Below, piece by piece: positions 5,986 through 62,191 of a stretch of DNA of 64,000 nt. The translations under genes were made by a program, and so were the position numbers. Every line of letters starts with the position of its first letter. The first letter of the stretch is position 1. Origin of the DNA: Prolixibacteraceae bacterium (GTDB lineage Bacteria > Bacteroidota > Bacteroidia > Bacteroidales > Prolixibacteraceae). Under the pieces are notes generated by a model. That model searched no databases, was not told the origin of the DNA, and worked only from the letters and a program-made list of their open reading frames with translations. The stretch spans positions 2,604,001-2,668,000 of the forward strand of contig CP082230.1 in assembly GCA_019856515.1 (NCBI GenBank). The letters run 5' to 3'.

Positions 5986-6009
5986 CAACCGCAAAACAAG
6001 AAATACACG

Positions 6010-6083
6010 GTGGTTGTAGCTCAGTTGGTTAGAGCACTGGATTGTGGTTCCAGGGGTCGTGGGTTCAAATCCCATCATCCACC
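6010..6083 (+). tRNA. tRNA-His(GTG), copy 1
   Basis: Cloverleaf with anticodon GTG at 6044-6046 and T-loop TTCAAAT. A G at 6009 could be the His-specific G-1, paired with discriminator C. Position 5:68 is a T:T mismatch. CCA is not encoded. Confidence 0.95.
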
Positions 6084-6111
6084 CTACTTTTTTATTTTGA
6101 CGATTTACATG

Positions 6112-6185
6112 GTGATTGTAGCTCAGTTGGTTAGAGCACTGGATTGTGGTTCCAGGGGTCGTGGGTTCAAATCCCATCATTCACC
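6112..6185 (+). tRNA. tRNA-His(GTG), copy 2
   Basis: Same body as copy 1, but acceptor pair 4:69 is A:T instead of G:C, a compensated double change. This argues the copy is functional. Confidence 0.95.
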
Positions 6186-6215
6186 CTACTTTTATTTAAG
6201 ATACCGTACTATACG

Positions 6216-6289
6216 GTGGTTGTAGCTCAGTTGGTTAGAGCACTGGATTGTGGTTCCAGGGGTCGTGGGTTCAAATCCCATCATCCACC
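6216..6289 (+). tRNA. tRNA-His(GTG), copy 3
   Basis: Sequence identical to copy 1. The three copies are spaced 102 and 104 bp apart and are presumably one transcript ending at the terminator at 6300. Confidence 0.95.
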
Positions 6290-6299
6290 CTACTTTTGA

Positions 6300-7135: not shown

Positions 7136-7220
7136 GGAGAGATGGCAGAGTGGTCGAATGCGGTGGTCTTGAAAACCATTGTACCGCGAGGTACCGGGGG
7201 TTCGAATCCCTCTCTCTCCG
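7136..7220 (+). tRNA. tRNA-Ser(TGA)
   Basis: 85-nt class II tRNA. Acceptor GGAGAGA pairs with TCTCTCC, discriminator is G, and a long variable arm with GTACC/GGTAC-like pairing is present. The anticodon loop CTTGAAA gives TGA. Confidence 0.95.
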
Positions 7221-7225
7221 CAAAC

Positions 7226-7298
7226 ACGGGTGTAGCTCAGTTGGCAGAGCACTGGTCTCCAAAACCAGGTGTCGGGAGTTCGAGTCTCTCCTCCCGTG
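7226..7298 (+). tRNA. tRNA-Trp(CCA)
   Basis: Anticodon stem CTGGT/ACCAG with loop CTCCAAA, anticodon CCA. Acceptor ACGGGTG/CTCCCGT has a T:T mismatch at 6:67. Discriminator is G, as is usual for Trp. Confidence 0.94.
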
Positions 7299-7313
7299 CA
7301 AGATTGTTTATTT

Positions 7314-7387
7314 GGCGAGGTAGCTCAGCTGGTTAGAGCGCAGGATTCATAATCCTGAGGTCGGCGGTTCAAGCCCGCCTCTCGCTA
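7314..7387 (+). tRNA. tRNA-Met(CAT), copy 1
   Basis: Anticodon stem CAGGA/TCCTG, loop TTCATAA. Acceptor GGCGAGG ends in a normal pair rather than the initiator's 1:72 mismatch, so it is elongator-type. A lysidine-modified Ile tRNA cannot be fully excluded by eye. Confidence 0.88.
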
Positions 7388-7413
7388 CAATACAATAATA
7401 ACAATCTCACTAC

Positions 7414-7487
7414 GGCGAGGTAGCTCAGCTGGTTAGAGCGCAGGATTCATAATCCTGAGGTCGGCGGTTCAAGCCCGCCTCTCGCTA
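7414..7487 (+). tRNA. tRNA-Met(CAT), copy 2
   Basis: Identical to the tRNA at 7314, placed 100 bp downstream; a recent tandem duplicate. Confidence 0.88.
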
Positions 7488-15270: not shown

Positions 15271-15344
15271 GCCGAATTAGCTCAGTTGGCCAGAGCACGT
15301 GATTTGTAATCTCGGGGTCATCAGTTCGAATCTGATATTCGGCT
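15271..15344 (+). tRNA. tRNA-Thr(TGT), copy 1
   Basis: Acceptor GCCGAAT/ATTCGGC, anticodon loop TTTGTAA. It starts immediately after ffs. The 29-nt spacer to the next Tyr gene recurs at two other Thr-Tyr junctions. Confidence 0.94.
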
Positions 15345-15373
15345 CAGTTCTTTTTAGAAATTGAAATATTGTT

Positions 15374-15456
15374 GGGGAGATACCAAAGCGGCCAACTGGG
15401 GCAGACTGTAACTCTGCTGTCTTACGACTTCGTAGGTTCGAATCCTGCTCTCCCCA
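15374..15456 (+). tRNA. tRNA-Tyr(GTA), copy 1
   Basis: 83-nt class II tRNA. Acceptor GGGGAGA/TCTCCCC, anticodon loop CTGTAAC, long variable arm. Confidence 0.95.
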
Positions 15457-15475
15457 CTAATTGCAAAAAATATTT

Positions 15476-15548
15476 GCGGGAGTAGCTCAATTGATAGAGC
15501 GTCGGCCTACCAGGCTGAAGGTTATAGGTTTGAATCCTTTCTCCCGCT
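15476..15548 (+). tRNA. Variant tRNA-Gly with anticodon ACC
   Basis: Clearly a diverged copy of the Gly(TCC) genes nearby: same acceptor GCGGGAG/CTCCCGC. The anticodon stem TCGGC/GCTGA encloses loop CTACCAG, so the anticodon is ACC (reads GGU). The T-stem ATAGG/CCTTT has a T:T mismatch at 50:64, and D-loop G15 is A. All stems can form but are weaker. It is either a rare A34 glycine tRNA or a decaying copy. Confidence 0.75.
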
Positions 15549-15587
15549 CAATTGACATTTAAAACGAATCAACTCAATCAGATTGAG

Positions 15588-15627
15588 TTTGAGATTTACA
15601 ATCTCAAAGATTCTATGTTTTTTTTAA
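15588..15627 (+). terminator. Possible internal terminator in tRNA array
   Basis: Perfect 9-bp hairpin TTTGAGATT-TAC-AATCTCAAA (15588-15608), followed about 10 nt later by nine or more T. A second overlapping hairpin, AACTCAATC-A-GATTGAGTT, lies just upstream. It could attenuate or split the array transcript. Confidence 0.4.
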
Positions 15628-15634
15628 AATATTT

Positions 15635-15707
15635 GCGAGAGTAGCTCAGTTGATAGAGCATCAGCCTTCCAAGCTGAGGGTCGCGGGTTTGAATCCCGTC
15701 TCTCGCT
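15635..15707 (+). tRNA. tRNA-Gly(TCC), copy 1
   Basis: Anticodon stem TCAGC/GCTGA, loop CTTCCAA. D-loop AGTTGATA has A19 and T-loop TTTGAAT has T56 in place of the usual G19/C56 pair. Confidence 0.93.
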
Positions 15708-15719
15708 CATTTATTTTAA

Positions 15720-15793
15720 GCCGAATTAGCTCAGTTGGCCAGAGCACGTGATTTGTAATCTCGGGGTCATCAGTTCGAATCTGATATTCGGCT
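15720..15793 (+). tRNA. tRNA-Thr(TGT), copy 2
   Basis: Identical to the copy at 15271. It is followed by the same spacer and another Tyr gene. Confidence 0.94.
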
Positions 15794-15822
15794 CAGTTCT
15801 TTTAGAAATTGAAAATATTGTT

Positions 15823-15905
15823 GGGGAGATACCAAAGCGGCCAACTGGGGCAGACTGTAACTCTGCTGTCTTACGACTTCGTAGGTTCGAATCCTGCTCT
15901 CCCCA
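15823..15905 (+). tRNA. tRNA-Tyr(GTA), copy 2
   Basis: Identical to the copy at 15374. Confidence 0.95.
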
Positions 15906-15930
15906 CTAATTGCAAAAAATGTTTTTTTGT

Positions 15931-15962
15931 TTTGATGTTTAAAATAAATTTCATTAGATTTG
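15931..15962 (+). promoter_or_regulatory. Internal promoter in tRNA array
   Basis: TTTG at 15931-15934, 20 nt, then TAGATTTG at 15955-15962, a near-consensus -33/-7 pair. It lies in the longest spacer of the array, 44 nt before the third Tyr gene, and suggests a second transcription unit. Confidence 0.55.
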
Positions 15963-16005
15963 CATCCGATTTATGAACAGAGGTTTATAAATTTTAACGA
16001 TTATT

Positions 16006-16088
16006 GGGGAGATACCAAAGCGGCCAACTGGGGCAGACTGTAACTCTGCTGTCTTACGACTTCGTAGGTTCGAATCCTGCTCTCCCCA
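16006..16088 (+). tRNA. tRNA-Tyr(GTA), copy 3
   Basis: Same sequence as the other Tyr copies. It is the first gene after the internal promoter, and no Thr gene precedes it here. Confidence 0.95.
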
Positions 16089-16107
16089 CCGAAAGAAAGA
16101 ATTATTT

Positions 16108-16180
16108 GCGAGAGTAGCTCAGTTGATAGAGCATCAGCCTTCCAAGCTGAGGGTCGCGGGTTTGAATCCCGTCTCTCGCT
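16108..16180 (+). tRNA. tRNA-Gly(TCC), copy 2
   Basis: Same as the copy at 15635, with the A19/T56 combination and loop CTTCCAA. Confidence 0.93.
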
Positions 16181-16192
16181 CATTTAGTTTAA

Positions 16193-16266
16193 GCCGAATT
16201 AGCTCAGTTGGCCAGAGCACGTGATTTGTAATCTCGGGGTCATCAGTTCGAATCTGATATTCGGCT
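16193..16266 (+). tRNA. tRNA-Thr(TGT), copy 3
   Basis: Identical Thr(TGT) body. A Gly gene follows directly, so the Tyr gene of this unit appears to be missing. Confidence 0.94.
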
Positions 16267-16288
16267 CAGTTCTTTTGAAAAATATTAT

Positions 16289-16361
16289 GCGGGAGTAGCT
16301 CAGTTGATAGAGCATCAGCCTTCCAAGCTGAGGGTCGCGGGTTTGAATCCCGTCTCCCGCT
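16289..16361 (+). tRNA. tRNA-Gly(TCC), copy 3
   Basis: Acceptor GCGGGAG/CTCCCGC (pair 4:69 is G:C instead of A:T in copies 1-2, compensated). A19/T56 present. Confidence 0.93.
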
Positions 16362-16375
16362 CATTTAGTTTTTTT

Positions 16376-16449
16376 GCCGAATTAGCTCAGTTGGCCAGAG
16401 CACGTGATTTGTAATCTCGGGGTCATCAGTTCGAATCTGATATTCGGCT
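16376..16449 (+). tRNA. tRNA-Thr(TGT), copy 4
   Basis: Identical Thr(TGT) body with the conserved 28-nt spacer to Tyr. Confidence 0.94.
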
Positions 16450-16477
16450 CAGTTCTTTTAGAAATTGAAATATTGTT

Positions 16478-16560
16478 GGGGAGATACCAAAGCGGCCAAC
16501 TGGGGCAGACTGTAACTCTGCTGTCTTACGACTTCGTAGGTTCGAATCCTGCTCTCCCCA
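16478..16560 (+). tRNA. tRNA-Tyr(GTA), copy 4
   Basis: Identical Tyr body. Confidence 0.95.
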
Positions 16561-16579
16561 CATTCGACTTATAATTTAT

Positions 16580-16652
16580 GCGGGAGTAGCTCAGTTGATA
16601 GAGCATCAGCCTTCCAAGCTGAGGGTCGCGGGTTTGAATCCCGTCTCCCGCT
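16580..16652 (+). tRNA. tRNA-Gly(TCC), copy 4
   Basis: GCGGGAG acceptor version, A19/T56 present. Confidence 0.93.
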
Positions 16653-16665
16653 CATTTAATTATAT

Positions 16666-16737
16666 GCCGATATAGCTCAGGGGTAGAGCGCTTCCTTGGT
16701 AAGGAAGAGGTCTCGAGTTCAATTCTCGATATCGGCT
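16666..16737 (+). tRNA. tRNA-Thr(GGT)
   Basis: Acceptor GCCGATA/TATCGGC, anticodon stem CTTCC/GGAAG with loop TTGGTAA, anticodon GGT. Single copy. It corresponds to the last gene of the Thr-Tyr-Gly-Thr block found before tuf in many bacteria. Confidence 0.94.
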
Positions 16738-16765
16738 CATTTCTGAAGAATGAACATTATTTATT

Positions 16766-16848
16766 GGGGAGATACCAAAGCGGCCAACTGGGGCAGACTG
16801 TAACTCTGCTGTCTTACGACTTCGTAGGTTCGAATCCTGCTCTCCCCA
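16766..16848 (+). tRNA. tRNA-Tyr(GTA), copy 5
   Basis: Identical Tyr body. Confidence 0.95.
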
Positions 16849-16866
16849 CTGAAAGAAAAAATATTT

Positions 16867-16939
16867 GCGGGAGTAGCTCAGCTGATAGAGCATCAGCCTT
16901 CCAAGCTGAGGGTCGCGGGTTTGAATCCCGTCTCCCGCT
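16867..16939 (+). tRNA. tRNA-Gly(TCC), copy 5
   Basis: D-loop AGCTGATA keeps A19, T-loop keeps T56. Last gene of the array. Confidence 0.93.
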
Positions 16940-16943
16940 CTAT

Positions 16944-42998: not shown

Positions 42999-44357
42999 AT
43001 GAAAACAACTTTAATTACCAACGTTAAAATTGTAAACGAAGGTAAAATTCATAAGAAATGTTCGGTACTCATCAAAGGAGATACCATAGAGAAAATCTTC
43101 AGAAATGAAGTCCCACAGAACATAATCGATAAATGCGAGGTTCTAGATGGTGATAATCGCTATCTTATCCCTGGTGTTATTGACGATCAGGTACATTTGC
43201 GTGAACCTGGACTCACCCACAAAGAAGATATATACCACGGTTCTAGGGCTGCGGTTGCAGGTGGAGTTACCTCGTTCATGGAGATGCCAAACACCATTCC
43301 TCAAGCAACGGATCTCAAAACATTAGAAGAAAAATATGATATCGCTGCCAATAGCTCGCTAGCAAACTACTCTTTTTATCTTGGTGCTACCAATACGAAT
43401 ATCGAAGAGGTAGAGAAAGTAGATAAGAAGAATATCTGCGGTGTTAAGCTATTTATGGGATCTTCTACGGGAAACATGTTGGTAGATAACGAAGAAGCAT
43501 TAAATCTTCTTTTTGCTAAGTCTCCTGTTATCATCACATCTCACTGTGAAGATGAGCAGATTATTCGAGAAAATATTGCAAAAGCAAAGGAGCAATATGG
43601 CGAGAATGTACCGATTAGCGAACATCCAAAAATTCGTAGTGCCGAAGCTTGTTACCAATCAACGGTAAAAACCATTGAGCTTGCAAAAAAACATAATGCT
43701 CGCCTCCATGTGTTGCACCTTTCGACACAAAAAGAGATGTCTCTTTTCCAATCGGGAGACCTGAAAAACAAAAACATTACATCGGAAGTCTGCGTTCACC
43801 ACCTTTGGTTTGACGACAGCGACTATGAGAAGTATGGCACCAAAATAAAATGGAATCCAGCCATCAAAGCCGCGTCTGACAAAGCTGCATTATGGGAAGC
43901 ACTAAACAACGATAGAATCGATGTCGTAGCTACCGATCATGCTCCTCACACTGCTGAAGAGAAAGATAACAACTACTTTAAAGCACCGTCTGGAGGACCA
44001 CTTCTTCAACACTCACTGGTAGCCATGCTAGATATGGCGCGTAAAGGTAACACCACCATTGAGAAAGTCGTTGAGAAGATGTGTCACGCTCCTGCCGACC
44101 TTTTCGAAGTAGAGAAACGTGGTTATATCCGTAAAGGATACAAAGCCGATATCGTATTGGTGGATCAAGTGCCATGGGAAGCAACATCCGAAAACACGGT
44201 ATACAAGTGTGGATGGAGTCCGTTTGAAGGTACTCGCTTTGCATTTAAAGTGACCCATACCTTCGTAAATGGAGAGTTGGTCTACAAAGCAGATAAAGAA
44301 GGTATGCACTTCTACGAAGAGAACAGAGGACAACGTTTAACTTTCGATCGTGAATAG
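42999..44357 (+). CDS. pyrC: Dihydroorotase, Bacteroidetes type
   Basis: A 452-residue amidohydrolase that closes carbamoyl aspartate to dihydroorotate in pyrimidine synthesis. Metal-site motifs: VIDDQVHLREPG (His66, Arg68), the carboxylysine candidate in GVKLFMGSSTG, TSHCED, LHVLHLST and ATDHAPH (Asp). The first His of the usual HxH pair is Gln64 here. I recall this as common to Bacteroidetes homologues, but it should be checked. Allantoinase or hydantoinase are the close alternatives. The following lipoprotein gene overlaps its 3' end by 8 bp, so they form an operon. Confidence 0.88.
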   Translation: MKTTLITNVKIVNEGKIHKKCSVLIKGDTIEKIFRNEVPQNIIDKCEVLDGDNRYLIPGVIDDQVHLREPGLTHKEDIYHGSRAAVAGGVTSFMEMPNTIPQATDLKTLEEKYDIAANSSLANYSFYLGATNTNIEEVEKVDKKNICGVKLFMGSSTGNMLVDNEEALNLLFAKSPVIITSHCEDEQIIRENIAKAKEQYGENVPISEHPKIRSAEACYQSTVKTIELAKKHNARLHVLHLSTQKEMSLFQSGDLKNKNITSEVCVHHLWFDDSDYEKYGTKIKWNPAIKAASDKAALWEALNNDRIDVVATDHAPHTAEEKDNNYFKAPSGGPLLQHSLVAMLDMARKGNTTIEKVVEKMCHAPADLFEVEKRGYIRKGYKADIVLVDQVPWEATSENTVYKCGWSPFEGTRFAFKVTHTFVNGELVYKADKEGMHFYEENRGQRLTFDRE

Positions 44358-44820
44358 AATAATCATATTCTTTTGTATTACAATATCAATGTGGGGGTGC
44401 AATAGCACCCCTTCTGCTACCCAAGGACCAAACAAAAGAAAAAATAGCGATGTCGGTTCCGTTTATTACGATGTGATCATTCAAAGCAATAAACCCAAAG
44501 ACGATTGGGAACAAATTGCCATCGAAAAACTAGACCGTGACAAGCTTGTCCAACAACTCTTTAAACAAATCATCGACAACAAACTACGTATCGAAGATTT
44601 CTACGAAGAGACAAAGATACCTGTAGCCGAGTTCAAGAAGAAGATCTCCAATGGGGAGATCGATCCAAACAAAATCACAAAACTACAGTTTGAAGAGGTC
44701 TGGAACACCCAACAAGTCCCAATACAAAAAAGAATAAAATCAATCGTATTTGCCGAAAATGCATACGATCATCTTGGAAAGAAGATGGGATACAAACCGC
44801 TTTTTATCTGCTACTACTAA
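44350..44820 (+). CDS. Small lipoprotein, unknown function
   Basis: 156 residues with a short lipoprotein signal (SMWGC, Cys17). The rest is charged and helical (KDDWEQIAIEKLDRDKLVQQLFKQIIDNKLRIEDFYEETKIPVAEFKKKISNGE). It overlaps the end of pyrC by 8 bp, which implies translational coupling. Small lipoprotein genes after dihydroorotase are often DUF4296 in this phylum; the fit here is weak, so I leave it unassigned. Confidence 0.75.
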   Translation: MNRIIIFFCITISMWGCNSTPSATQGPNKRKNSDVGSVYYDVIIQSNKPKDDWEQIAIEKLDRDKLVQQLFKQIIDNKLRIEDFYEETKIPVAEFKKKISNGEIDPNKITKLQFEEVWNTQQVPIQKRIKSIVFAENAYDHLGKKMGYKPLFICYY

Positions 44821-44935: not shown

Positions 44936-45380
44936 CTAAAAACCAAGTAAAAAAAGTCGGCCCATTTCCCCTTCTTTTTATTTCTACAAAATTTTAAAAT
45001 ATCAATACTGAAAAGACGATCCTCTCACCCCTCACTCCCCTTAAAAAACACATATTCACAAAACTTCACTCCGCCTAAACAATTTATATCCCAAAAGCTT
45101 CACCTCACTCTAAAATATCTAATCGATAAAACTCATACCACTTAACCTACCACATCCTCACTTTAAATTCACCACAACCTCAGCAGCCCTTTTCACATCC
45201 TCAACCAATTTCCTGACATCAAAAAATCCCCAACTCCCTCAACCAGAACCTTCAAAAAGGCACTTACAGGGATTTAAAAACAGTATATTTAAAATCACTA
45301 CGAAAAATAACCCAGACAGAGTTTAAGTTACACTACCTCTTTCCCTCTACTACAAAGTGACATCCCCCCGAACTCCAAGC
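44936..45380. other. Non-coding stretch with extreme C-over-G skew
   Basis: In 45001-45240 I count 86 C and 9 G on the plus strand. No frame is open for a sensible length. It leads directly into the inverted-repeat element at 45381. The function is unknown. Confidence 0.65.
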
Positions 45381-45663
45381 TACCAACATCGCACCTAATC
45401 CGCCCCAAGTCCGTACCTAATATATCCCTTATCCGTCCTTAATCCGTCCTTAATCCGTCCTTAATCCGTCCTTAATCCGTCCTTTGTCCATGATTCGTCC
45501 ATCATTGATCCATGGTTCAGCCATCAAAAACCCCGAAATCGATGGACAAACCATGGACGAACCATGGCTAAAGCATGGACAAAGGACGGATTAAGGACGG
45601 ATTAGGGATATATTAGGTACGGACTAAGTACGATGTTGGTATAGTGTTGGTACGGTGTTGGTA
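45381..45663. repeat. Large imperfect inverted repeat element
   Basis: The left arm (about 45382-45525) and right arm (about 45541-45663) are imperfect reverse complements around a loop of about 15 nt. Shared perfect blocks include 20 nt at 45410-45429 (GTCCGTACCTAATATATCCC) and about 30 nt spanning TTAATCCGTCC repeats into TTTGTCCATG. The inner part is rich in CCATGG words. The left arm has five 11-bp units, the right arm only two. It would fold into a hairpin of over 100 bp as RNA or a cruciform as DNA. Confidence 0.85.
45429..45482. repeat. 11-bp tandem repeat, five units
   Basis: TTAATCCGTCC repeated head to tail; the first unit lacks one A. Two complementary units lie in the opposite arm near 45581-45604. 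Confidence 0.9.
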
Positions 45664-45822: not shown

Positions 45823-46161
45823 ATGGGAATAACCAAAACGAATTTATTTAGTGATCGTCAAAATAGGATTGCCAATTATGCAAAGGCAATTGGACATCCT
45901 GCGAGGGTTGCTATTATCGAATATCTTCTATGTGAGGGGAAGTGTATCAACAAATCTCTTGTGGAAGAGCTTGGACTATCTCAGGCTACTATTAGTCAAC
46001 ATCTTAAAGAGTTGAAGCATATTGGTCTGATCCAAGGTGAAGTGGAGGGACATTCGGTTCACTACTGTCTGAACAAAGATAATTGGAAACTGTTTGAAGA
46101 GGAACTAGGAGACTTACTAAAGAATATATCAACACAAAAAATTACTTGTAAATCACAATAG
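45823..46161 (+). CDS. arsR: ArsR-family transcriptional repressor
   Basis: 112-residue winged-helix repressor that leaves DNA on binding arsenite or antimonite. The HTH is in LVEELGLSQATISQHLKELKHIGLI, followed by the wing (GEVEGHSVHYCL). Candidate metal-binding Cys residues are Cys37 and Cys41 (CEGKC) and Cys109 near the C-terminus, a different arrangement from the CVC motif of E. coli ArsR. First gene of an arsR-arsC-acr3 operon; the next gene starts 3 bp after its stop. Confidence 0.93.
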   Translation: MGITKTNLFSDRQNRIANYAKAIGHPARVAIIEYLLCEGKCINKSLVEELGLSQATISQHLKELKHIGLIQGEVEGHSVHYCLNKDNWKLFEEELGDLLKNISTQKITCKSQ

Positions 46162-61177: not shown

Positions 61178-62191
61178 ATCGGGTAGATGGCTGGAAGATA
61201 TTTAATCTTCCAGTACACCTCCCACACCACCGTACGTACGGGTCTCGTATACGGCGACTCCCTAAATCACGACTTTACTTTCTGATAATAATCACTTAGC
61301 GTAATATAGCCTGCCTTCTCCAAATTCTTATTCGTTATAGTCGTTTGTAGAATTGGACTCTTTGAAATGAAATGCGCCAATACTTTTTCCTCGTATTAGC
61401 ATATTCATACGCTTTGCTCTTCAAAACTCCGATCAAATATGCCGCATGAAATAATGATAATTCGCCATCGGGTTAACACTTACCTTTTCGTAGTTCTGTT
61501 ATTAAAACTTTTCGATGAAATCTGAGATAATCTTTTAAGGATTCCACCTGCATCTCATCAACTCCATGACTCCCTTTATTTCGATAAACCTGTAAATAAG
61601 CCTTATTTAGGTTATCTGATTCTAGGACTCGTTCTAATAAATTATCTGTTGTAATGGTCGTTTTCATAATGGCTTCAGTTATCCCATTGAAAGTGTGCGC
61701 TCTTGAGTTATTATCGAGTTCCGCTCTACCTTCACTCAAGTAGCTATCTTCCGATATTTTCTGCATTGATCCCTTCATTAGGTAACAGTCTGTATTATGA
61801 ACAATTTAAGATTCAGTCCTTCCTGTAAAGTGGATACAGTACTATGACCTCGGCTGACTTCTCACAGTTAACTTTTTGTGAATGGACAGGAAAAAAAATA
61901 CACTGTATCCATCTGTGAGACCTCCCATGGTAAGGAAATTAACTTTCACTCCATCTATCCGCCACATCTACGGTATAAACTCCGTGTAGAATTCGGACTT
62001 CACTTTGTTTGGCAAGCTTATCCAGTTATATACCGCCTAATGAGATTCGTATACCTCGGATCAGAGTTTTGCATACGGCTTCCTTCAGGTTATACCTCAC
62101 GATAAGCACCCTTGCCTTCTGCTAGGTGGTTGGCTCTACAAACCTCCACTACGGACTTGCACCGATTAGTTAATTTACATGCATGGCACAC
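61178..62191 (-). mobile_element. Degraded group II intron
   Basis: 1014 bp. The minus-strand 5' end is GTGTGCC at 62191 and the 3' end is ...ACCCGAT at 61178. Domain V-like CCGTATACGAGACCCGTACG/TACGG is at about 61225-61257, and domain VI hairpin TGGAAGAT...ATCTTCCA at about 61191-61213. Comparison with the neighbouring uninterrupted repeat units shows a clean insertion between tatagacg and caaaaaaaccgac, just past a 5S terminator stem. The internal ORF is deleted and frameshifted, so the element cannot move by itself. Confidence 0.85.
61267..61778 (-). pseudogene. Group II intron reverse transcriptase/maturase remnant
   Basis: The first 101 residues (61778-61473) match the RT N-terminus (LLERVLESDNLNKAYLQVYRNKGSHGVDEMQV...LITELRKGK). 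A stop then follows, and the catalytic RT blocks including YxDD are missing. Downstream, in other frames, the C-terminal maturase end is recognisable (LKSKAYEYANTRKKYWRIS, then SPILQTTITNKNLEKAGYI) to the stop at 61267. So about 300 residues are deleted, with a frameshift. Confidence 0.85.

Follow-up and report, generated by a model that had tools for sequence, protein, structure and literature searches.

A dispersed intergenic inverted-repeat element with phased 11-bp units and mutually spaced copies in a genus of Prolixibacteraceae

RESULTS

Structure of the element in the window

The window is a stretch of 64,000 nucleotides, positions 2604001-2668000 of the complete 5,187,288-bp chromosome of a Prolixibacteraceae bacterium (genome G000). 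Between a short ORF with a lipoprotein-like start and a gene for an ArsR-type regulator lies an intergenic element composed of two inverted arms, each with about ten 11-bp units, around an apex. The features of the locus, in window positions, are the following.

44350..44820, + strand: left neighbour, a 156-aa ORF with a lipoprotein-like start and no Pfam match
45247..45340, no strand assigned: probable remnant of a Mutator-type IS end, outside the element; 94 bp with 96.8% identity to the stretch of L039 between the IS gene and the element
45412..45654, + strand: whole element, delimited from the 11-bp phase signal; an apex flanked by two inverted arms, each with about ten units of 11 bp
45412..45522, + strand: 5' (left) arm of 11-bp units; near the apex, more variation between copies than in the right arm
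45439..45482, + strand: left-arm tandem block, four exact TTAATCCGTCC units, which are of outer type A
45521..45545, + strand: apex, a 7-position stem (45521-45527 with 45539-45545) and an 11-nt loop (45528-45538)
45531..45585, + strand: most conserved block, CCCCGAAATCGATGGAC plus CATGGACRAAC-type units with GGACAAAG at the end
45544..45654, + strand: 3' (right) arm, 11-bp units GGACAAACCAT and then GGATTAAGGAC-type units; nearly every copy has A at phase 6 in units 0 to 7
45823..46161, + strand: right neighbour, ArsR-type regulator, PF01022

The limits of the element are approximate; the wider interval 45381-45663, outlined in the initial annotation, takes in weakly phased edges. We anchored the register of this copy at 45544 in the 3' arm and at 45522 in the 5' arm. 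The apex stem, drawn from an alignment of 32 copies and from pair counts, has one mismatch in the window copy, and most columns of the block at 45531-45585 are invariant among the aligned copies (32 of 38).

The initial annotation, made from the letters of the window, described two imperfect inverted arms with an 11-bp tandem unit, and the arms are real: 45381-45491 is 76% complementary to 45542-45652, and the longer pairing of 45381-45503 with 45541-45663 is 72% complementary. The longest perfectly shared blocks measure 31 and 22 nt, where about 30 and 20 nt had been given. Five tandem units had been counted in the left arm; four are exact copies of TTAATCCGTCC, starting at offsets 58, 69, 80, and 91 from 45381, and the fifth is a degenerate unit that precedes them. 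Of the two units counted in the right arm, one is exact and the other has a single mismatch. CCATGG-like words do fill the inner part, in 11-bp steps, and no ORF of at least 60 aa runs across the element. The statement that no known family matches was borne out by an Rfam search at the gathering threshold, which returned nothing at 45.4-45.7 kb. When each strand was folded, z scores were -10.2 for the + strand and -14.7 for the - strand, and none of 100 shuffles folded as well.

The six genes beside this copy have, in order, Pfam matches to amidohydrolase, none, ArsR, none, SBF, and GH20, and the same scan found no parM or parR gene among them. Elsewhere in the window, tRNA gene clusters with near-identical units repeated in tandem lie at 6000-6297, 7136-7487, and 15271-16940, and Group II intron D1D4 matches lie on the - strand at 61816-62106, about 125 bp from a 5S rRNA gene.

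Copy number and distribution

A chance local duplication, present once and absent from relatives, had been named as the refuting outcome. Searching G000 with the 283-bp element (40 of 46 candidates scored) instead returned 77 DNA matches at 38 places, mostly matched on both strands; a covariance model of the core again returned 77 matches (150 of 1,807 candidates scored), and the element is present in relatives as well, in all four genomes searched of its genus. We confirmed that the element exceeds chance and that the initial observation was real and larger than first reported.

The G000 copies lie outside long ORFs, as none is overlapped by an ORF longer than 112 aa in mechanical gene calls. 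By hand reading, with short ORFs passed over, 14 of the 38 copies are in divergent gaps, 13 are between tandem genes, and 3 are unclear. The remaining 8 are in convergent gaps, too few for a transcription terminator between convergent genes, which we set aside. Read-through transcripts are not expected at the 14 copies that lie between divergent genes.

Across the family, with five candidates scored per genome, the element was found in 4 of 140 genomes, all of one genus; the other 136 genomes, from 22 other genera, gave no match. The genus with the element might conceivably be Halosquirtibacter. Genome G074 has 74 matches at 38 places (37 if a weak match, at 32.7 bits, is discounted), G075 (99% complete) has 123 matches at 62 places, and G076 (77% complete) has 59 matches at about 30 places. 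G075 is the metagenome-assembled genome (MAG) JAOARB (Prolixibacteraceae bacterium McBI.27), based on exact 300-nt matches at three of five loci tested. Another MAG, JAOARN, filed as Marinifilaceae bacterium McD1.32, appeared outside the family search, among the matches listed in a separate genome-wide scan for CCATGG arrays. The element, apex and inverted arms included, is present in it at L196 and L203, and these loci are not equal to the G075 or G076 loci compared. A distant-mode search of plasmid and phage records with the 131-bp core gave no match.

A three-fold CCATGG pattern in 11-bp steps occurs in 3 of 393 genomes of the order: G000, G074, and G382, the last being a MAG (RGIG5934) from another family, Paludibacteraceae. 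G382 bears 11-bp arrays, but no inverted repeat of at least 18 nt was present in the four places tested, and we rejected it as evidence of the same element outside the genus. In a sister genus, 200 kb of genome G001 held no 11-bp array. CCATGG arrays with an 11-bp step also occur in unrelated bacteria among the matches listed; 21 array loci from these matches were viewed by eye, and most of those outside this group seemed to be plain minisatellites. On a Nitrospinota MAG contig (L197:1524-1720), the 11-bp units are themselves palindromic (ATCCATGGAT type). Short tandem arrays abound in G382, for instance at L346:4700-5480; it contains 561 per Mb (in 189 kb), compared to 81 to 109 in four other sets, and 7-bp arrays are the most frequent (38), followed by 11-bp arrays (15).

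An 11-bp phase shared by different unit sequences

Most G000 copies have an apex of CATCGA, an 11-nt loop, and TCGATG, with 11-bp units on either side. We aligned the cores of 32 of the 38 copies, excluding L015, L017, L026, L028, L032, and L045 for their differing unit number, and found more variation in the 5' arm than in the 3' arm, most of which is invariant. By their outer units, the G000 copies divide into 18 of type A, with GGATTAAGGAC in register, and 20 of type B, with GGAGAAGGTAC and similar sequences; the core and both outer types keep one common register.

What varies least is an A at phase 6 of the unit, often within GGANNAA, in both arms. Among the 38 G000 copies, this A is present in units 0 to 7 in 94-100% of copies in the 3' arm and in 86-100% in the 5' arm. 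In units 8 to 10, the values are 50-78% (3') and 63-73% (5'), with a background of 0.32 to 0.33, and the signal falls near background from about unit 11 (3') or unit 13 (5'). The phased A extends to about unit 11 in G076, unit 6 or 7 in G074, and unit 4 to 6 in G075. The 5'-arm phase is one base off in G076 and G074, which we ascribe to a different loop. In eight arm sets, the best period of the A profile was 10.9 to 11.4.

The conserved arm block has a standard length in 32 of the 38 G000 copies; two of the others are shorter by one unit, and four are longer by one to four units. Length therefore changes only by multiples of 11 bp across all 38 copies, which fits the slippage-prone core proposed in the initial annotation. 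The same annotation had suggested a one-faced protein-binding array, and this gains support from the phased A in both arms, though a repeat merely homogenised by recombination could also retain register.

Pairing of the arms and the case for linear DNA

A structured RNA had also been suggested. Here the element would be transcribed as a long hairpin with one cleavage or binding event in every A-form turn, and it would work either as a small RNA or as part of neighbouring messages. One turn of A-form RNA is 11 bp, so phase alone does not exclude RNA, and the strong predicted folds agree with a hairpin, as does the core alignment, with standard pairs in 87% of its cells. Three measures of this alignment (covariation score, percent paired, and cells changed on both sides) exceeded all 500 shuffles; both-side-changed pairs (49 of 500 shuffles) and pair types (220 of 500 shuffles) were not beyond the shuffles.

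Because related sequences can beat shuffles without any structure, we compared the pairing of each copy's own arms with pairing to the arms of other copies. Over four in-register blocks, P values were 0.240, 0.442, 0.060, and 0.490 for G000 type A; 0.306, 0.990, 0.078, and 0.338 for G000 type B; and 1.000, 0.136, 0.268, and 0.466 for G075. In G076, own arms paired better in units 4 to 7 (P = 0.000) and units 8 to 10 (P = 0.010) and no better in units 0 to 3 (P = 0.252) and units 11 to 13 (P = 0.216). The in-register blocks of G074 gave 0.990, 0.378, 0.138, and 0.012 (the last for units 11 to 13), at an offset too narrow for this genome. With a free offset, own arms and the arms of other copies both scored 0.566 in G074, and the reversed-sequence control scored 0.377. 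Under the same procedure, own arms scored above other copies in the pooled G000 types (0.724 versus 0.690) and in G076 (0.674 versus 0.634) and below them in G075 (0.651 versus 0.667). A gapped pairing test in G000 gave P = 0.023 for type A and P = 0.887 for type B.

Pairing follows mostly from the shared arrays; it is coupled in G076 and perhaps in type A. Since the phase is kept in all four genomes and pairing is mostly uncoupled, recognition of linear double-stranded DNA is favoured: a conserved hairpin is weakly supported, and phase on linear DNA is better supported. The coupled pairing in the outer arms of G076, and perhaps in G000 type A, speaks for the RNA, but coupling is slight or absent in the G000 types, G074, and G075, where own arms pair no better, and the G074 score stands above its reversed-sequence control regardless of which copy supplies the arm. 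Both strands fold, no Rfam family matches, and more than a third of the G000 copies (14 of 38) are in divergent gaps. Thus, we consider a transcribed hairpin distinctly unlikely.

Spacing around the chromosome

Copies avoid each other in three genomes (smallest-gap P of at most 3e-4). The smallest gap between copies in G000 is 27,642 bp, against a random median of 2,535 bp (P = 0.00026); when four of the five rRNA-linked copies were removed, it was 31,611 bp (P = 0.00042). In G074 the smallest gap is 24,531 bp (P = 0.00024). For G075, we used the 36 within-contig gaps of the 62 places, with 32 contig breaks assumed over 3.8 Mb; the smallest gap is 13,738 bp (0 of 50,000 simulations).

The evenness of the gaps was also pronounced in G074, with a coefficient of variation (CV) of 0.418 compared to 0.964 at random (0 of 50,000 simulations) and of 0.450 without the weak copy (again 0 of 50,000). 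In G000 (CV 0.798, P = 0.107) and G075 (CV 0.795, P = 0.090), the CV is not significant by itself, and it is the absence of short gaps alone that is significant. Under a null with more copies near the origin, the G000 CV reached P = 0.0063; this two-density null was chosen post hoc, with the data already seen. As a control, an IS with a 482-aa transposase, present at 16 places in G000 (one weak match omitted, split copies counted once), was distributed at random by both measures (P = 0.48 for the CV and 0.74 for the smallest gap). Copies missed at random make a pattern look more random, not less. The mutual exclusion of copies in three genomes lends support to the initial suggestion of a chromosome-organisation site.

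In G000, 26 of the 38 copies point with replication (P = 0.034), including 16 of 20 of type B (P = 0.012) and 10 of 18 of type A (P = 0.81). We set this orientation bias aside, as it comes from one genome and several tests and no such bias was visible by eye in G074. The tendency of type A copies to lie closer to the origin than type B copies gave P = 0.08, and origin distance compared with a uniform distribution gave P = 0.025.

The variable unit number, the 11-bp CCATGG arrays in unrelated bacteria (among the matches listed, one with palindromic units at L197), and the G382 arrays, without inverted repeats in the places tested, would all suit an ordinary intergenic minisatellite family, produced by 11-bp slippage and ectopic recombination and tolerated without function or dedicated spread. 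Alone, such a family leaves unexplained the symmetric arms and single apex in tens of copies, the one register kept by different unit sequences, and the spacing. We regard it as slightly less likely than the hairpin RNA.

Insertion sequences and rRNA operons near copies

Probable Mutator-type IS ends lie within about 300 bp of several copies (window 45247-45340, L039, L025, L030, L036, and L043). The protein of this IS matches PF00872, and three of its four protein matches in G000 start less than 1.5 kb from an element; the IS was not found in G074. It may insert near these palindromes. The IS with the 482-aa transposase lies less than 5 kb from an element at 5 of its 16 places, compared with a mean of 1.2 at random (P = 0.005). 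The genome is repeat-rich, and several loci (L043, L045, L014, and L025) share further dispersed repeats, about 130 bp long, in their flanking sequence.

Five element copies in G000 are on the upstream side of rRNA operons. The operons form tandem arrays, head to tail and about 5.2 kb apart, at L309, L310, and L311 (G000 positions 2960000-2979500, 3335000-3350000, and 3518000-3532000), with two or three 16S genes per stretch; L312 and L313 have two rRNA matches each.

Turnover between species

Several elements in G076 and G075 adjoin the same genes as in G000, based on flanks of about 1.5 kb. The window's site has a G075 counterpart on the dihydroorotase and lipoprotein side, and L023 is kept on both sides. 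In 272 kb from two G076 contigs, a syntenic region was present for three G000 loci, and at each of them G076 has an element next to the same genes, shown on both sides for L018 and L039 and on one side for L017.

G074 is the more distant relative, and its positions are largely unlike those of G000. Within 10 kb on either side of 34 G074 copies (15% of the genome), at least two syntenic genes were found for 6 of the 38 G000 loci, about the chance expectation, and one of the six, L026 beside an rRNA operon, is at the same place. The lipoprotein and ArsR genes that flank the window's site are present in G074, with no element between them.

For sequence comparison, we used 38 cores from G000, 34 from G074, 28 from G075, and 17 from G076; two of the nine orthologous G076 pairs (L017 and L018) were left out, as their G076 cores were not extracted. 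In the seven remaining G000-G076 pairs, the positional counterpart ranked 14, 1, 14, 4, 10, 1, and 16 of 17 in similarity, and one of the two rank-1 counterparts was nearly identical (0.991). In three G000-G075 pairs, the ranks were 4, 28, and 27 of 28. Core identity was 0.70-0.88 within species compared to 0.63-0.77 between species. The species have some positions in common and mostly differ in element sequence, so copies were gained or lost over the divergence of the species and homogenised within each of them.

These patterns bear on the initial suggestion that the element is MITE-like. It has no coding capacity, many dispersed copies, and inverted repeats, as MITEs do, and it is gained or lost between species. 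However, no target duplication was visible between species, where the intergenic DNA is too diverged to show a junction at the empty G074 gap; in the empty-site comparison at rRNA operons, the flanks diverge before the element. The Y1 transposase family (PF01797) has two matches in G000 and one in G074, and none was found in G075 (99% complete) or G076 (77% complete). We therefore set aside mobilisation by RAYT.

Much of this could be accounted for by a mobile repeat of the MITE or REPIN kind, selfish and non-autonomous, without host function and spread by some enzyme. Its even spacing would come from target immunity or from recombination that purges close copies, and its homogeneity would come from recent spread and gene conversion. 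Dispersed copies confined to one genus of the family sampled, presence and absence differences between species, and higher identity within species than between them are all consistent with such a repeat, as are the inverted outer arms common to copies (L022 with L037; L024 with L026, L031, and L036). Set against these, G075 has the most copies and is one of the two genomes in which no RAYT-type transposase was found, no target duplication was seen in the diverged intergenic DNA, exclusion is not seen for the one IS examined in G000, and some positions are common to several species. Strict phase with little coupling of pairing is also unexpected for a hairpin substrate. A selfish repeat with exclusion is a real possibility, nearly as likely as the protein-binding array that we prefer.

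DISCUSSION

Our best reading, which we hold tentatively and derive from sequence comparison, is a fast-evolving, helically phased, putative protein-binding array that would serve as a regularly placed chromosome site. It is favoured by the phased A together with several unit sequences in one register, the 11-bp steps, the spacing, and the shared positions. The element would act as double-stranded DNA, its two inverted halves together holding as many as about 20 units of 11 bp in helical phase. A putative DNA-binding protein would contact roughly one helix face at every unit and might oligomerise along both halves into a nucleoprotein body, by analogy with ParR on the tandem repeats of plasmid parC. 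Some 40 to 60 such sites, at mean intervals of roughly 60 to 140 kb, could anchor, bridge, or divide the chromosome. If only the phase and a short motif were needed, the unit sequence would be free to drift fast, while slippage and ectopic gene conversion would homogenise units within a species. Close neighbouring copies would either not form or be selected against.

Several observations do not fit this array reading well. The G074 positions mostly differ from those of G000, and the window's site is empty there. Own arms pair better than other arms in G076, in the gapped test of G000 type A, and in the pooled G000 types with a free offset, and three pairing measures of the core alignment exceed every shuffle. 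The CV alone does not reach significance in G000 or G075.

A more specific version, by analogy with known partition and satellite systems, is a satellite-like system of distributed chromosomal sites. Arrays at least 14 to 28 kb apart, quickly re-sequenced in each species, would be read by a putative ParR-like or other oligomerising protein to give evenly spaced bodies that organise or segregate the chromosome. We consider this specific version unlikely. If true, it would parallel dispersed centromere satellites in function.

Repeats dispersed in bacterial genomes are usually taken as mobile debris. Phase with little coupling of pairing, exclusion in three genomes where an IS is random, and some shared positions whose sequence is species-specific point instead to constraint on a DNA site placed at regular distances. 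Should a protein read the array, this would be a new way of organising or segregating Bacteroidota chromosomes; should the element prove selfish, a mechanism would still be needed for the long-range exclusion of copies.

Comparison with known systems

A dispersed intergenic palindromic repeat is a known kind of element. In the open-licence literature, covered mostly by titles and abstracts, we found no published description of its phased 11-bp arms or of the exclusion that its copies show.

REPINs and BIMEs are described as dispersed intergenic palindromic repeats, present in many copies, that evolve within one genome and also occur as tandem clusters (PMC3116915). With their RAYT systems, they resemble the element in being dispersed intergenic palindromes in many copies. 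They differ in that a REPIN consists of two inverted short REPs that form one hairpin, whereas the element has 11-bp phased units over about 240 bp; in that the REPINs described there form tandem clusters, whereas element copies are at least 14 to 28 kb apart; and in that RAYT systems have a Y1 transposase in the genome, which was not found in two of the element's four genomes. The BrickBuilt MITE of Porphyromonas gingivalis is reported to have 23-nt tandem repeats and short terminal inverted repeats (PMC4596501). It is, as here, a tandem repeat inside an inverted-repeat element of the Bacteroidota. From that description, its 23-nt repeats lie between IS-type terminal inverted repeats, whereas the 11-bp units here form the symmetric arms themselves.

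The parC unit of plasmid R1 is 11 bp. Type II partition sites of this kind (R1, pSK41) are described as tandem-repeat arrays, continuous or, in R1, split in two, which the RHH protein ParR wraps as a superhelix with one dimer per iteron (PMC5016525). Both parC, as so described, and the element, as known from sequence alone, have tandem repeats at about one helical turn. The element differs in having inverted halves and tens of sites per chromosome.

Noc and SlmA sites are dispersed, with tens per chromosome, and each kind is read by one protein. The matS site is reported as 13 bp, with 23 copies in 800 kb, read by MatP (PMC3330122). The element is like matS, so reported, and like the Noc and SlmA sites in comprising tens of dispersed sites per chromosome; those sites are short fixed motifs, whereas the element forms arrays of about 240 bp that change fast and spread over the whole chromosome.
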